Shown here: piece by piece, positions 4,063-54,015 of the stretch
Position numbering within the stretch: the first letter of the stretch is position 1
Layout: each line of letters starts with the position of its first letter
Assembly: GCA_944383305.1 (NCBI GenBank)
Contig: CALWOZ010000001.1
Location: forward strand, 29,026 to 93,025
Direction: 5' to 3'
Length of the DNA: 64,000 bases
Source of the DNA: an uncultured Clostridia bacterium
GTDB lineage: Bacteria; Bacillota; Clostridia; Lachnospirales; CAG-274
Position numbers and translations under genes: made by a program
Notes under the pieces: model-generated
The model's database searches: none
The model's input: the letters and a program-made list of their open reading frames with translations, nothing else
Told to the model about the DNA's origin: nothing

Positions 4063-4290
4063 AAATAACACCTCTTTATATTAAATTATATTTTATAAAA
4101 ATTTTTGATTAAAAGTACAAAGCTATGTCTATTGATATAATAATTAATAATTATTAATAAGATTATTATTAACCTAATTATATGTGTAACAATTATACCA
4201 CAAAAACATTAATAAAACAATTATATTTTAATATATAACAAAACAAAAATAAAAAATCTACATATTAATATATAAAATAACAATATATTA

Positions 4291-4420
4291 TCAATTTTTT
4301 TGATACTTTGTATCAAAAACCAGCTATTCCTATTATTCTTCTGCGATAAAATTTAAAACCAAAACCCGTTTATAAATTTTATCTTGAACAATAAAGTCAT
4401 AGCTTAATTGAAATTAATAA
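4291..4420 (-). repeat. Dispersed repeat copy A (medium length)
   Basis: Read on the - strand it has the head (AATTAAGCTATGACTTTATT), the middle (AAATTTATAAACGGGT), the AATAATAGGAATAGC block, and ends in the tail palindrome TTGATACAAAGTATCAA. It lies between the divergent LRR gene and the surface-protein promoters. Only a weak hairpin borders its head, unlike most other copies. It lacks the internal GTGGTAATTT hairpin of copy C and has a short unrelated stretch there. Confidence 0.85.
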
Positions 4421-4829: not shown

Positions 4830-7800
4830 ATGAAAAGAAAAATTGCGATATTATTATCAGCTATGATGGTTACTAGTGCAATGCCACTTAGCGCAAGCGC
4901 AGCTCAATTAAAATCTGATAGCGTTCAAAATACTACTTTCGCTAAATCAGGCGAAACTATTGACCCAAATGCTAAAGATTATAAAACTTATACTAATGAA
5001 AATGACTTAAGAGGTAGAAGAAGTGTTCTTAAAGTAAACCTTAATAATGATGGTACAGATGCAATCGAAAAAGGTACTAGCTTTAATGTAAAATTAACTA
5101 ATGGTACTTTTGGTGATTATCAAGCAGGTACAGACCTTAATAATACAGAGTTTGGTTATAGAAACGTAAATAATATAGGTTATACTGAAGTTGAAAGTTT
5201 AGGTACTTTAACAGAAGTTTATAATAAAATTGCTGAAAGCCAAACTGCAACTTATGGTCTTAATACTCCAATAGTTCTTTCTGGTAATCAAGATAGTACA
5301 GTTCAGGCTATTGCAAGTGCTTTTACATCTGCATCTTCTAGCGATAAGCCAAGTAGTAACAGTGCAGCAGATTTACTTACTTGGTTAGATGGAAAATCTA
5401 AAGCAGGTACTAATTTTCTAAATACATTTAAAAATAATTTAGAAAGTAGTACAGGTTCTACTCCATCTTTACTTCATATTCCGTATAGTATAACACTTGT
5501 AAGCCCAACAGAAGCTAGAATTACTACATTACAAACTCTTACAAATGATGATAAGGAAATAACTTTTAATAGCTCTATAGAAGTGAATACAAGTGAATTA
5601 GAAATTAAAGTATACTCTGATGAAGAAGGTAAATTAGAAATTGAAGATTTTACTACATTAGGTACTGAATTAAATCAAGCTAAATCTATTAAAATAGTAG
5701 AAAAAACTTCAGGTGAAGGTGTTAAAACTACTACAAAATCGCTTAAAGATCCATATATTGCATTACCTTTAGGTGGTGTTAAAGCTGATGGTAATGGTGC
5801 TGTTAAAGCTACTGTTGTTGCTGATTATAACGATAAAGTAGTAGGTGGCGAATATACTATTACTAAAGGTTTAGAATCAGGTTCTACTAGCTTAGTATTT
5901 GATTCTAATAATGTTAAATCTTTTGAAGATAAAGTTGAAATTGATTCTTTAACTTTAAGAGAAAACGTTAGAAATACAATCGGTAAAGATACTGATAACA
6001 ACGGTACTAAAGATACTGCAGAAATAACTTTAAGACTTAGCGGTGGTTTCAAATTTAAAGATAGCAACGTTACAGTTGTAGATGCATCTGGTAAAAATGA
6101 TCTTACTAATAAAGTTACTACTAGTTGGGTAAATGAAAATAATCAAAGTGCTATTAAAGTTAAAATTACAGGATTAGAAGACCGTAACAATCCAATCGGT
6201 TTAGATTTTAGCAAAATTGGAACAGAAATCTTACCTACTAATGACAACAACTATGGTGATGTAGAAATTACTGTATCTGGTGATGGAATTAGTGGTCAAA
6301 CAATTCTTGTTGCTAAAAGAGAAAAATTAGGTTTCAAACTTGAAACTGTAAAAGATGCTCAAGAAATAGTATCTGGTAGACATTTCAACATTGATAAAAA
6401 CACTATGGTTGAAGATGACAACAACACAGTTGAAGTTAAATTCTCAGAAGCTGTTCCTAACACATTAGTTAGCTCTAGAGCTTTAGACTTTGATCTTCCA
6501 GAAGGTGTTAAAATCGTAGACGTAGAAGTATCTGAAGCTAAAAACTTTAAGAGTTCTAATGGTCTTGATGATTCTGACTTTGAAATCATCAACAATGGTA
6601 GAACTTTAAGACTTACAAGAGATAGCTATGCTATCCAAGATTCAGTTAAATCTGTAGCTAGCTTTAAATTAAAATTCAACTTATCTGTTGATCCATCTTT
6701 CACAGGTGACATTAAACTTAGTGTATCTGGTGGTGGACAAAGCGAAGGTACTACTCCTGACGTTGTTATAGCTAAAGCAGTAGCTCCTTTTGAAATCAAA
6801 ACTCAAACTACTAAAGTAGATTTAGGTTACCAAGATTATAACACTGCTGATATTACTATAACAGAAACTAAACCTGGTATGTTCTTAGAAGCTAAAGATG
6901 CTCAATTAAAATTAGTTGCTCCTTATGGTACTCAAGAAGTTGGTTTCTCTGAAGCTAAATTCGAAGTAACTGGTGGAGAATTAGAAGTTAAAGAAAAAGA
7001 CTTCAAAATTAAAGATGGTGTAATTAACTTTACAGTGAATAAAGCATCTTACAAAAACCCATCTACAATCACTATTAAAGATGTAAAAATTGGTTCTACT
7101 CGTTCTGTACCATATGGTAGCTATAACTTAGCTTTAAGTGGTGGAGCAGTTATCAACAACTATAAATCAGGACTTGCAGATGACAAACAATTTACACTTT
7201 CTACAACAGGTTCAAAAGATACAAAAGAATTAATGTATCAAAACAACACTGAATACTATGAAGTTGAAAACTATGTAAACGTTATTACTGAAACTGGTAC
7301 TTTCAATCAAACAGTTAAAGTAAGCGTTGGTGAAAAAACTGTTCTTGTTGGTGATCAAGCTTATGATATGGACGTAGCTCCTTATATCCAAGCTTCAAGC
7401 AACAGCACAATGGTTCCTTTAAGATTCGTTTCTGTAGCTTTAGGTGTAGATAGCTCTAACGTAGCTAACCCAGACGCTTCTAACAAAATCGCTTGGGATG
7501 CAAACACTAAAACTACTACAATCTACTACGGTGCAGGTACTGGTCAAAAAATTATTCAATTCCAAGCTGGTAGCAACATTATGGTAGTTGATGGTACTAG
7601 AATTCCTATGGAATATGGTGTAGTAGCTGAAATTAAAGACGGTAGAATGTTTGTTCCTTTCAGAGCTTTAGGTCAAGCTCTTGGTGTAACTGTTTCTTGG
7701 GATGCAGATACTAGAACTGCTATCTACAACGAAAACAACGCTAGAAATGCAAACACTACTACAACTGCTTCTACAACAGAAAGCACAACTGCAAGTAGTT

Positions 7801-7934: not shown

Positions 7935-8028
7935 ATGAAATATATAGAATATAGAATATTTAATAGTTTATTAGACATATATTTATTAACATAAAATAGG
8001 ATATTTATAGTAAAATATATAAAAATAG

Positions 8029-8110: not shown

Positions 8111-10360
8111 ATGAAAAAAATAAAAAATTTAAAACTTTTTGTTAAATTTTTACTTACATTTGGAATAATACTAGTATTAGTATTAGTATTGGGAGTAAGT
8201 GGAATATTAGGCTTAAGCTATGCTAATAACACATATTATAACGCTCTAAAATCTAATGATTCTATTGTTAAAGATGGAATGGAATTAACAGAAAATATAG
8301 CTGAAATGAGACGTGAGATTACAGTAATGGGTTATAGAGGCACTGTTACACAAGAGGATAAAGATTTTATTCAAGCTTCATATAGTGCATCTAAAGAAGC
8401 AGGTGAAAGATATTTAGAGGACCTTAAAAAAATTCAGCAAGAGGCTAAAAAAGATAGAAGTGAAAATATAGCTTTAATAGAAAATATTTTAACATCTTTA
8501 GACGAATACTATGGTTTATATGAGCAACTTGTAGATGCTATAGAGAATAATCAACCAGATAGACAAAGTCAAGTATTAGAAGAAATGACAAAATTAGGTG
8601 GAACATTCTTTAGTAATGCATATTCTGCTCAAGGTGATGCTTTTGATACTCTTCTTTTAGAAATGGATGAAGTTAAAGCTAATATACAAATAAAAATAAT
8701 ACAATTAATCTTAATATTTATCGTTATAGTTATAGTAGGAACTATATTTGGTGTAGGACTTTCACGTTTAACAAGAAAACCAATAGAACGATTGAAAGAT
8801 ATAGCTTTACAGGTGGCTAAAGGTAATTTAGATGAAGACCCAAGAACTAATACTACTGATGAAATAGGCGAATTATCTAATGCTATATCTAATATGTCTG
8901 AAACATTTAGAGGCATTTTATTAGACATAAACCAATTATCTAGTGAATTAGATAAAGGTAATATTTATTATAGAATAAATTCTGAAAGATATGAGGGTAT
9001 ATTTAAAGATGCAATAAACTCTATCAACAATGCTATTAACAATTTAATTGAAGATTCGTTATATATAGTTGAAAAAATAAAAGAATTTGGCAATGGTGAC
9101 TTTGAATCACAAATAAAAGACTTTCCAGGAGATAAAGCTATTATTAAAAATGAAGTTTCTGGAGTACAAAATGCTTTAAGAAGTGTATCAGAAGAAATAC
9201 ATAGCCTTATATTAGCAGCAAGTGATGGTAACTTAGATTTTAGACTTGATACGTCTAATTATATCGGTCAATGGAAAGAAATAACAGAAGGTTTAAATCA
9301 ATTTGTAGAAAATGTAGTAGCACCTATTAAAGAAACTCAAAATGCACTTAATCAATTTTCTGTTGGTAATTTTGCCCATAGAATGACTAATGAATATAAA
9401 GGTGAGTTTAACAATATTAAACAAACTGTAAATTATACAGCAGAAACAGTTGGCTCTTACATTTCTGAAATATCTGATATTTTAAATGAAATGGCTAATA
9501 AAAATTTTGATCTTTTTATAGAAAGAGATTATCTTGGTGATTTTGAACAAATTAGAACTTCTGTAAATTTAATAATTACAAATCTTAATATGCTTACAAA
9601 AGATATTATAACATCTGCTGAACAAGTATCTGCTGGTGCTAAACAAATATCTGAATCTAGTATATCTTTAGCAGAAGGGGCTACAAAACAGGCAGAAGCC
9701 GTAGAAGAACTTAATTCTACTGTTAAAATTATATCTCAACAATCTAGCGACAATGCTAAAAATTCTGAAAAAGCTAATGTAATAGCATTACAAGCTAAAG
9801 ATAGTGCCAATGATGGTAGTAAACAAATGGATAGTATGCTTTTAGCAATGGAAGAAATAAATGTTGCTTCTAACAGTATATCTAACATAATAAAAGTTAT
9901 AGATGATATTGCATTCCAAACTAATATACTTGCCCTTAATGCTGCTGTAGAAGCAGCCCGTGCTGGTGAACACGGTAAAGGATTTGCAGTAGTTGCTGAA
10001 GAAGTTAGAAACTTAGCAGCTAGAAGCCAACAGGCAGCTAGAGAAACTACAGGGCTTATAGAAAGTTCGGTTGAAAAAGTAGCTGAAGGTTCTAAAATAG
10101 CTAATAATACAGCTCAGGCTTTACTCAGTATTGTTAATCAAATAGAAGAAATAGCAAGCTTAGTAGAATCTTCTACTATATCATCTAAAGAACAAGAAAA
10201 ATCTATTGAAGAAGTTAGAACAGGCATATCTCAAATATCAGTTGTTACACAAGATAATACTGCTACAAGTGAACAATCTGCAGCTGCAGCTCAAGAACTT
10301 GCTAGTCAAGCCGAAGTTTTCTACTCTTCTGTTTCAGATTTTAAACTAAGAAACGAATAA
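8111..10360 (+). CDS. Methyl-accepting chemotaxis protein
   Basis: 749 residues. Membrane segment 1 lies at about 13-36, an extracytoplasmic four-helix-type sensor domain at about 37-195, membrane segment 2 at about 196-217, then HAMP ([20 protein letters not shown]) followed by further HAMP-like repeats to about 500 and a C-terminal signalling domain with the conserved hairpin tip ([33 protein letters not shown]). It would pass a ligand signal to CheA/CheW at the membrane. The ligand is not predictable. The extended HAMP array is longer than in simple receptors. No che or flagellar genes are nearby. Ribosome site AGGAAGGGG; own promoter and downstream terminator, so monocistronic. Confidence 0.95.
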
Positions 10361-10375
10361 TATAAATTTTAAATA

Positions 10376-10595
10376 ATTTTTTTGATACTCTGTATCAAAA
10401 CCAACTATTACTAATATTTTTCTACAATAATGTGGTAATTTTTATTTATTTTGACGCTTTGCACAAAAAATGAATTGTGTATTGCAATTTAAAAATTGTA
10501 TATTGCAATTTAAAAATTGCAATAGTATTAAAACAAAAAGTAAATTTATAATTTTTATTGTAGAAAAATAAAGTCATAGTTTAATTATAATTAAT
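10376..10595 (-). repeat. Dispersed repeat copy B (long)
   Basis: On the - strand: head ATTAAACTATGACTTTATTT, a middle with repeated TTGCAATTTTTAAATTGCAA-type hairpins in place of the GTGGTAATTT hairpin of copy C (only a half of which remains), a degenerate AATATTAGTAATAG block, and the tail palindrome TTGATACAGAGTATCAA at 10382-10398. The head abuts the terminator hairpin at 10596. Confidence 0.75.
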
Positions 10596-11970: not shown

Positions 11971-12039
11971 GCAATTTTATTTGTTATTTATCCTACTTTA
12001 ACATATATAACAAATATACATATTGCAAAAGTGTGTATA

Positions 12040-12074
12040 AAAAAGTCATAGATATTATCTATGACTTTTTTATT
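12040..12074 (+). terminator. Terminator of the CAP gene
   Basis: AAAAAGTCATAGAT, ATT loop, ATCTATGACTTTTT, then T-rich sequence. Repeat copy C begins within the T tract. Confidence 0.88.
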
Positions 12075-12255
12075 AATTTCAATTAAGCTATGACTTTATT
12101 TTTCAAGATAAAATTTATAAACGGGTCTTTGTTTTAAATCGTGGTAATTTATAAAATTACCACATTATCAAAGAGAAATAATAGGAATAGTTTGTTTATT
12201 TTGATATAAGGTATCAAAAAAACTAATTGATACAAAGTATCAAAAAAATTGATTT
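12071..12255 (+). repeat. Dispersed repeat copy C (most complete)
   Basis: Head AATTAAGCTATGACTTTATT, then AAATTTATAAACGGGT, an internal perfect hairpin (GTGGTAATTT / AAATTACCAC, 12141-12163), AATAATAGGAATAG, and a duplicated tail palindrome (TTGATATAAGGTATCAA at 12201 and TTGATACAAAGTATCAA at 12227). It lies directly beyond the CAP-gene terminator. No coding potential is seen. The rest of 11971-12433 is plain AT-rich sequence. Confidence 0.88.
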
Positions 12256-19200: not shown

Positions 19201-19203
19201 TTG

Positions 19204-19268
19204 TCTTAATTAAGCTTTGACTTTATTTTTTATTTTAATTCTATTGTAAAAATATAGAACAAAAATAA
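19204..19268 (+). repeat. Dispersed repeat copy D (head only, degenerate)
   Basis: TTAATTAAGCTTTGACTTTATTT just past the rpsO terminator, then decayed AT-rich sequence. Middle and tail are missing. Confidence 0.6.
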
Positions 19269-29977: not shown

Positions 29978-29983
29978 TTTTAT

Positions 29984-30008
29984 AAATTAAGCTATGACTT
30001 TATTTTTA
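29984..30008 (+). repeat. Dispersed repeat copy E (head only)
   Basis: AAATTAAGCTATGACTTTATTT directly after the T tract of the rng terminator. The rest of the element is missing. Confidence 0.6.
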
Positions 30009-31776: not shown

Positions 31777-31824
31777 AAATGTATTTGTCTACTTAATATA
31801 TAAGTATTCAAATACATTTTTTAT
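31777..31824 (+). terminator. rny terminator
   Basis: AAATGTATTTG ... CAAATACATTT with an inner ACTTA/TAAGT pairing, followed by TTTTATTATA. Confidence 0.85.
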
Positions 31825-31828
31825 TATA

Positions 31829-31966
31829 TAAATTAAGCTATGACTTTATTATTTGAGAGAAAAATTATAAGTTAGGTTTTTAATTTGTAGGAATTTATAA
31901 AATTACCACATTATCAAAGAAAAATAATAGGAATAGCTATTTATTTTAATACAGAGTATTAAAAAC
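31829..31966 (+). repeat. Dispersed repeat copy F
   Basis: Head AATTAAGCTATGACTTTATT, middle with AAATTATAAGTTAGG, a decayed left arm plus intact right arm of the internal hairpin (AAAATTACCACATTATCAAA), AATAATAGGAATAGC, and a tail of TTTAATAC-AGA-GTATTAAA. The tail differs from the consensus at both arms in a way that keeps the pairing. Beyond it, to 32074, the sequence is AT-rich with no recognised gene. Confidence 0.85.
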
Positions 31967-32074
31967 TAATTTTGCAAAAATTTAATATACTACACTTTAA
32001 AATTAACATAGTTTTTATTAAAATAGTATATTAATAACTAAATGTTTATTATATTTATGAAAGAAGGCAATTAT

Positions 32075-40860: not shown

Positions 40861-40897
40861 AATAAGATAGATAAATTTAAATCTATCTTATTTTTAA
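40861..40897 (+). terminator. Terminator of the liv-amidase operon
   Basis: AATAAGATAGAT ... ATCTATCTTATT followed by TTTAATAC. Confidence 0.85.
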
Positions 40898-40956
40898 TAC
40901 AATTAATCTAGATATAAAGTATAAAAAATTATTTTTTAATATTAATTTTAAATTTG

Positions 40957-42598: not shown

Positions 42599-42650
42599 TC
42601 TAAGTTAAGCTATTAAATACAAAAATTATAAATGGGTTTTATTTAATAAT
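42599..42650 (+). repeat. Dispersed repeat copy G (decayed)
   Basis: TAAGTTAAGCTATTAAATAC and AAAATTATAAATGGGTTTT match the head and middle loosely, directly after the ABC-F terminator. From here to the promoter at 42799 only AT-rich sequence is seen. Confidence 0.45.
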
Positions 42651-42798
42651 AGTGATTTAATAAAATATATTAAAAACTTAATTATAAAATTTTACTAAAT
42701 AATAAATAAAATAATTGTAACATATATACTTAATAAGTTAATAATATAACAATAAAAATTACTAAAAATTTGTTTAACTATTTATATAAAATTGTAAA

Positions 42799-47500: not shown

Positions 47501-47770
47501 ACAAAAAAATATTTCTATAATCACTTATTTTAATACTACGACTATCTTTATTACATCCAAAAGAAATAGTATGGATTTATTTGTTATAGTTTTCTTATGT
47601 TTTATAGTATATATATAAATTTGAATAAGTCTAGCAAAAATGAATAATAAATTAACCCAAAAATCACAAACACTAAAAAATATAAAGGCTCTTTATTAAA
47701 AATGCCAAAACGAAAAGTTTTGACATAACTATTGACAAAGAACCTTTGAGAGTTGTAGTTTTTATAGTAT

Positions 47771-47845
47771 TATAATTATGCTATAACTTTATTTTTCAAG
47801 ACTTTTGTTTAAGTTTTTGTTATAGAAAATAATAATAGTAATTTT
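47771..47845 (+). repeat. Dispersed repeat copy H (decayed)
   Basis: AATTATGCTATAACTTTATT, TTTTCAAGA, TTTTTGTTATAGAAAATAATAATAG match the head and middle. A weak hairpin AAAGAACCTTT-type sequence lies about 40 bases before it. Confidence 0.5.
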
Positions 47846-47863
47846 TTAATATAAAATTATATT

Positions 47864-53835: not shown

Positions 53836-54015
53836 TTAATTTCAATTAAGCTATGACTTTATTATTCAAGAGAAAAATTATAAACTAGTTTTTGTTTTAA
53901 TCATATTACAATTTTTAAATTACAATATTCAATTTAAAAAATTGCAAAAATATCGAATAATAATAGGAATAGCTTGTTTATTTTGATACAAAGTACCAAA
54001 ATAAATTGATTTTTT
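53836..54015 (+). repeat. Dispersed repeat copy I
   Basis: Head AATTAAGCTATGACTTTATT, middle AAAATTATAAACTAGTTTTT, an internal AT-rich set of ATTACAATTTTTAAATTACA and TTGCAA half-hairpins in place of GTGGTAATTT, AATAATAGGAATAGC, and the tail TTTGATACAAAGTACCAAA with one mismatch. The head faces the 53804 hairpin. The gene to the right, upp, is on the other strand. Confidence 0.82.

Follow-up and report, generated by a model that had tools for sequence, protein, structure and literature searches.

The dispersed repeat present in this DNA is probably a non-autonomous transposable element resembling palindrome-associated transposable elements (PATEs), spread in trans through single-strand transposition by an IS200-type Y1 enzyme and using intrinsic terminators as landing sites. 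The stretch analyzed, called the window, spans 64,000 nucleotides (G000:C1:29026-93025) of a 2.57-Mb draft genome (G000); other G numbers denote the genomes compared with it. The nearest named relatives of G000 are uncultured Eubacteriaceae/Clostridia MAGs, with Anaerotignum next. The element is approximately 120 bp long, carries no gene, and has the organization (TTATT target)-AATTTC-AATTAAGCTATGAC...long hairpin...second palindrome-AAATTGAT. In its usual form, a unit of about 126 bp, the order is TTATT (target), AATTTC, AATTAAGCTATGAC, a stem, AATAATAGGAATAGC, TTTTTTGATACAAAGTATCAAAAAA, and ATTGAT. Longer copies carry additional palindromic modules in the middle of the unit, and other copies are shortened or consist of the head only.

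When up to three mismatches are allowed, the 20-base head AATTAAGCTATGACTTTATT is matched eight times in the window, compared to 0.07 matches expected, and 151 times in the whole G000 genome, where a reversed-pattern control yields zero. Head counts in sister species are 112 in G006, 55 in G003 (where the heads are of the variant AATTAAGGTACGACTTAATT), 21 in G001, and up to 6 in others. Genome-wide searches and a covariance model had been proposed in an earlier note on this DNA. The model built here recognizes the compact form in seven of the eight genomes of the genus, and gives no match in the 40 genomes examined elsewhere in the family, which represent 10 genera. An Rfam search of the window returned zero matches.

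Alignment of syntenic stretches of the sister species G006 with G000 revealed at least eight empty sites, from which it is evident that the element inserts. In G006, the empty site of the 4290 copy reads TTATTTTT/ATAGTATATTG (with the slash at the insertion point), the site after rny reads ACATTTTTTATTTTAT/AAAAATTTAATA, and the site at L094 reads TTATCTTTTT/ATTATCAATC. At most empty sites the terminator hairpin is already part of the empty allele: the terminator is kept at rny, L080, L081, L091, L097, and L100, and is missing at L048, L063, and L094. Four further relatives (L138-L141) lack the element at the rny locus. Because related rny loci occur without the element, three of them (L139-L141) clearly retaining the rny terminator, the filled state is the derived one. 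Roughly half of 34 comparable G000/G006 sites are common to both species, a proportion worded this loosely because the rny site was wrongly scored as common in the count. One of two readings offered in the earlier note was that the repeat may be mobile, non-autonomous, and directed at terminators, and the note had suggested comparing orthologous sites with and without it. The empty sites that keep the hairpin, the lineage-specific copies, and the enrichment statistics given below all support that reading.

The boundaries can be placed to within a few bases: the left flank retains the target ..TTTTTAT(T), and the right end reads ..AAATTGAT(T). Junction overlaps at the empty sites span 2-6 bp (AT, ATTA, ATTAAT) and could be small duplications; because their length varies, a fixed-length target duplication is ruled out. 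A two-base (TA) duplication model also fails at the 4290 site. Tandem copies, which are arranged head to tail, abut exactly (..AATTGAT/TAATTTCAATTAAGC). A candidate autonomous version at L275 was rejected, as its long head-to-tail span holds host genes and reflects a chance pairing. At this locus (L275 15736-17134 in G006), a large serine recombinase gene adjoins an element head whose distant tail partner is a chance match.

Within the window, copies are found at or near all of the places where the earlier note had reported at least nine copies or fragments. The full, half, and head-only forms it described are seen as full, shortened, and head-only copies, together with an ends-only form, and the units (~120-240 bp) indeed enclose no ORF. 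Six of the nine, rather than the seven it had placed just after terminator-like hairpins, immediately follow a hairpin that carries a T tract. The full element behind the CAP-domain gene (12075..12253, plus strand; BLAST and pattern matches, and a covariance model match of 53 bits at 12073-12227) has a middle lengthened by a GTGGTAATTT...AAATTACCAC module, a doubled right-end palindrome, and a right end at 12229-12253 that is an exact match. Its landing site is the terminator of the CAP gene (12037..12073, plus strand), which consists of a hairpin formed by an 18-nt perfect inverted repeat plus a T tract and is identical in the sister species G006. Head-only copies detected by pattern and BLAST follow the terminators of rpsO (19202..19230, plus strand; gene called by Pfam) and of rng, for RNase E/G (29979..30007, plus strand); no head occurs at the rng place in any relative examined. 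A full element matched by the covariance model follows the terminator of rny, for RNase Y (31823..31974, plus strand), and a degenerate left part, which is a weak BLAST match reading TTATTATCTAAGTTAAGC..AAAATTATAAATGGGT, follows that of an ABC-F gene (42603..42666, plus strand). The sixth copy is a full element with long palindromic inserts mid-unit (10372..10592, minus strand; BLAST and covariance model), preceded on the minus strand by a hairpin and T tract next to 10592. Five copies share the strand of the gene that precedes them, in agreement with the count in the note.

Among the other three, a full element also present in the sister species G006 (53838..54005, plus strand; BLAST and covariance model) has an upstream hairpin without a T tract. 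The remaining two, which are a full compact element with a unit of ~126 bp (4290..4417, minus strand; 134.8 bits with the covariance model, and a clean empty site in G006) and a decayed copy (47768..47851, plus strand; pattern and BLAST), have no clear hairpin upstream. A tenth copy, recognized through the sister-species comparison, is the ends-only remnant ATACAATTAATCTAGATATAAAGTATAAAAAATTAT directly behind a terminator (40897..40932, plus strand). Here the window has only both ends and G006 a fuller copy; the reciprocal case is the 12081 site, where G006 retains only both element ends. The window also contains a chemotaxis receptor gene at 8111-10360, of which several diverged copies exist in the sister species (G006 C3, C19, C37, C129).

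The fold of the element has three parts: a stem (AGNNNN-GA-CT.../...AG-GA-NNNNCT) in which a tandem GA mismatch is conserved, a hairpin inside it, and, set apart from these, a palindrome at the right end. All three stems are backed by compensatory base changes across the genus. Variable stem bases stay paired from species to species (GCTAT/ATAGC, GGTAT/ATACC, AGATAT/ATATCT, AGATGT/ACATCT). In an alignment of 44 copies, 18 of 37 pairs show changes on both sides, amounting to 133 both-side-change cells compared to 40 in shuffles (with 0 of 500 shuffles reaching 133), and the signal is lost when the pairing partner is slid. Since the short head hairpin AATTAAG..CTTTATT shows zero covariation when considered alone, the long pairing AGNNNN-GA.../...GA-NNNNCT was adopted. 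The palindromes near both ends are covarying hairpins, and the only sequence common to the two ends is the 6-base TCAATT/AATTGA, which is inverted. Among base-pair intermediates, G-T (49) exceeds A-C (22), a bias implicating the T-tract strand as the one that folds, either as DNA or as RNA.

These folding data raise the possibility that the repeat is a functional RNA, such as a processed 3′ extension, an antisense RNA, or an sRNA, propagated as a repeat and retained behind terminators for its RNA role. Strong stem covariation fits this explanation, as does an excess of G-T over A-C on the strand that would be made by read-through transcription. However, single-stranded transposon ends predict the same fold equally well, and transcription beyond a terminator is low. 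Furthermore, copies are gained and lost between sister species, many are head-only or broken, they have no tie to particular genes, and roughly half do not follow a terminator. The conserved post-terminator RNA that the earlier note had offered as its second reading is therefore not favored, and we regard an RNA function as quite improbable.

Several longer copies (window 10440-10530; L054, L058, L064, L074) include the palindromic modules TTGCAATTTTTAAATTGCAA, GTGGTAATTTATAAAATTACCAC, and TTTGGCGCAAAGCGTCAAAATAAA, as if smaller elements were nested in the repeat. At L127 and L022 (G000:C61:9988-10527), 64-bp head units and ~91-bp tail units are repeated separately in an array. This arrangement indicates that individual parts of the element can undergo amplification independently.

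The association with terminators was evaluated for 102 heads in G000 by scoring a hairpin (dG ≤ -8 kcal/mol) plus a T tract just upstream. By this score, 53 heads (52%) have a terminator, compared to 3.5% of non-coding positions drawn at random and 12% of those matched for T runs. None of the 102 heads is inside an open frame. At dG ≤ -6, 55 heads have a terminator, and a same-strand gene precedes 42 of these. The score detects no terminator at about half of the heads, eight of which follow another copy in tandem. The pentamer before the element is TTATT at 37 of the 102 heads, TTTAT at 20, TTTTT, TAATT, and TTAAT at 6 each, and TTGAT at 4. When sub-families are split by the base before the head, their association with terminators is weak (p = 0.018).

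Bacterial-C (group IIC) introns insert directly behind Rho-independent terminators (PMC8919778), and a degenerate intron of this group, or an element mobilized by one, would have the same class of landing site. It is to the landing site that the group IIC analogy drawn in the earlier note applies, and no further. Group IIC introns are retroelements equipped with a ribozyme and a reverse transcriptase, whereas neither is found here: the repeat is only ~120 bp with no visible intron features, no intron RNA was matched in the window by Rfam, and no intact reverse transcriptase was found in G000 or G006 (G000 has one broken fragment). This reading is already largely refuted, and we consider it highly improbable. 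The terminator-targeting machinery that is observed in the genus is that of IS200.

Stand-alone Y1 transposase genes are present in the genus and belong to the IS200/IS605 transposase family (NCBIfam NF033573, present in G000). Within the genus and its family, 18 of 21 genuine IS200 left ends lie directly behind terminators at a constant distance, where the 21 exclude two loose-pattern matches read as non-IS200. In other families of the order the count is 35 of 37 (L378, L389, L395, L399, and L401-L418 in G089; L380, L390, L396, L400, and L416 in G083), including 24 left ends of four IS types, mostly in one complete genome. The total for all left ends examined in the genus, family, and order is 53 of 58. 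No terminator precedes the different Y1 type at L374.

The details of these sites also agree with those of the element. IS200 left ends follow TTATT (9 of 14), TTGTT, or TTTTT. The spacing between the last hairpin G/C and the left end is 6-11 nt, with a mode of 8-9 nt, for IS200 and the element alike. The IS200 right end is a hairpin plus TCTTGACT or TTTTGATT, so that a palindrome followed by TTGAT(T) is common to both, as are the target pentamer, the kept left flank, and the post-terminator location. In contrast to IS200, the element has no tnpA, and the hairpin sequences of the two differ; the match is limited to the right-end pentamer, the target, and the layout. IS200s and element heads have also inserted behind IS200 right ends (L346, L093, and L316, with heads at L093 and L316), and for this reason a terminator can be read as a stand-in for the right end, namely a hairpin followed by a T-rich pentamer. 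The repeat copies are probably passengers moved by an IS200-type enzyme. We found no report of IS200 insertion at terminators in the literature searched, and papers beyond that set may mention it.

A further insertion, of ~330 bp and with TTTTTAGTGGCGGTTAAAA motifs, lies behind a terminator on the reverse strand of L272 (~6530-6880, G006 C33), opposite window position 7945. It is related to a piece beside IS200 in L320 and is possibly a second small element that uses terminators.

Movement by some other enzyme, now lost or unrecognized, might also be considered, for example if the repeat were a MITE derived from a DDE transposon, forming duplications that vary in length or are very short and happening to prefer T-rich sites behind hairpins. 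Element copy number indeed does not parallel IS200 count: G005 has 13 Y1 matches and only 6 elements by the covariance model, a Y1 relic is all that accompanies the 112 heads of G006, and G002 and G007 show zero Y1 matches, yet hold a few element copies. The draft state of G006 (89% complete) explains the mismatch only partly, and draft assembly together with IS loss may account for the Y1-poor genomes that have copies. The 2-6 bp junction overlaps and the short inverted match between the two ends would likewise suit such an element. However, the empty-site boundaries reveal neither the terminal inverted repeats nor the constant duplication of a DDE-type MITE, and no longer relative with the element ends and an internal gene exists in ~0.8 Mb of G006 plus the examined G000 loci. 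The target pentamer and geometry, moreover, match those of IS200. A different mover is thus unlikely, and transposition in trans by an IS200-type enzyme remains our preferred explanation.

The closest precedents are the PATEs of Haloquadratum (PMC3119063) and Halanaerobium (PMC7290912), which are compared here with reference to excerpts of those papers. As with PATEs, the repeat is too short for a transposase gene (~120-240 bp), is present in many copies (151 heads), and has palindromes close to both ends without terminal inverted repeats. The two also have in common lineage-specific insertions, which in PATEs occur although the IS200 genes of the host are mostly broken, ends-only versions, reported as core-deleted forms (PMC3119063), and partly broken IS200-type transposases in the host. 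PATEs generate no target duplication, and here there is none of fixed length, albeit with the overlaps noted above. Unlike PATEs, whose ends resemble IS605-type ends in sequence, only the right-end pentamer and the layout match IS200 in the present case, and terminator targeting is not mentioned in the excerpts of either paper. REP/REPIN sequences with RAYT (TnpA-REP) are similar in that many dispersed hairpins are tied to a Y1 enzyme, but the units examined here are ~120 bp and are inserted singly or head to tail. The GT[AG]G foot of REPs is absent from the element alignment A1, and the G000 transposase scores as IS200, with 30 bits for the REP-associated NF047646 (below the 80-bit cut-off).

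Excerpts describing the IS200/IS605 group (PMC5934647, PMC2806898, PMC7290912) report that these transposons use single strands, that their end hairpins are bound, and that insertion is 3′ to a short target kept on the left flank. On this basis, a Y1 transposase, presumably IS200 TnpA, would be supplied in trans and would spread the element by single-strand "peel and paste" transposition. The T-tract strand is predicted to form a long, imperfect hairpin close to the left end, with a short palindrome positioned 7 nt from the right end, and the transposase would recognize both structures in single-stranded DNA. The right end (palindrome plus TTGAT(T)) would then be joined to the sequence right of a TTATT-like pentamer that stays on the left, yielding no target duplication. 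The preferred target would be the T tract of an intrinsic terminator, where a hairpin is followed by T(4-6)ATT. This resembles the right ends of both the element and IS200 (hairpin plus TTGATT), and such mimicry, if it underlies target choice, would explain the exact head-to-tail arrays and the insertions behind IS200 right ends. In ISDra2, the TTGAT pentamer participates in target recognition and insertion is 3′ to TTGAT (PMC2806898). There TTGAT is the target, whereas in the element it belongs to the right end, and the excerpt on ISDra2 does not mention a terminator requirement.

Terminators could be chosen through recognition of the hairpin, through a paused polymerase that exposes the T-tract strand, or through a hairpin on the lagging strand. 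We speculate, with somewhat less than even confidence, that throughout this Clostridia order the IS200 group genuinely targets intrinsic terminators, recognizing them by structure. TnpA might read the hairpin and T tract in place of its own right end or, where RNA polymerase pauses, might catch the non-template T tract as a single strand, with non-autonomous passengers using the same harbor.

The element is a new family of the known PATE-like kind with an unusual target, and it accounts for a large part of the repeats dispersed between genes in these genomes. What is known of target choice by IS200/IS605 is recognition, through base pairing, of a tetra- or pentanucleotide. Terminators precede about half of the passenger heads and 53 of the 58 IS200 left ends, which points to an additional hairpin requirement. 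If true, this would constitute a second route to harmless genome sites, independent of that taken by group IIC introns, in that a copy behind a stop signal would break no gene. Terminator targeting could, by the same property, help place cargo behind genes without gene breakage.
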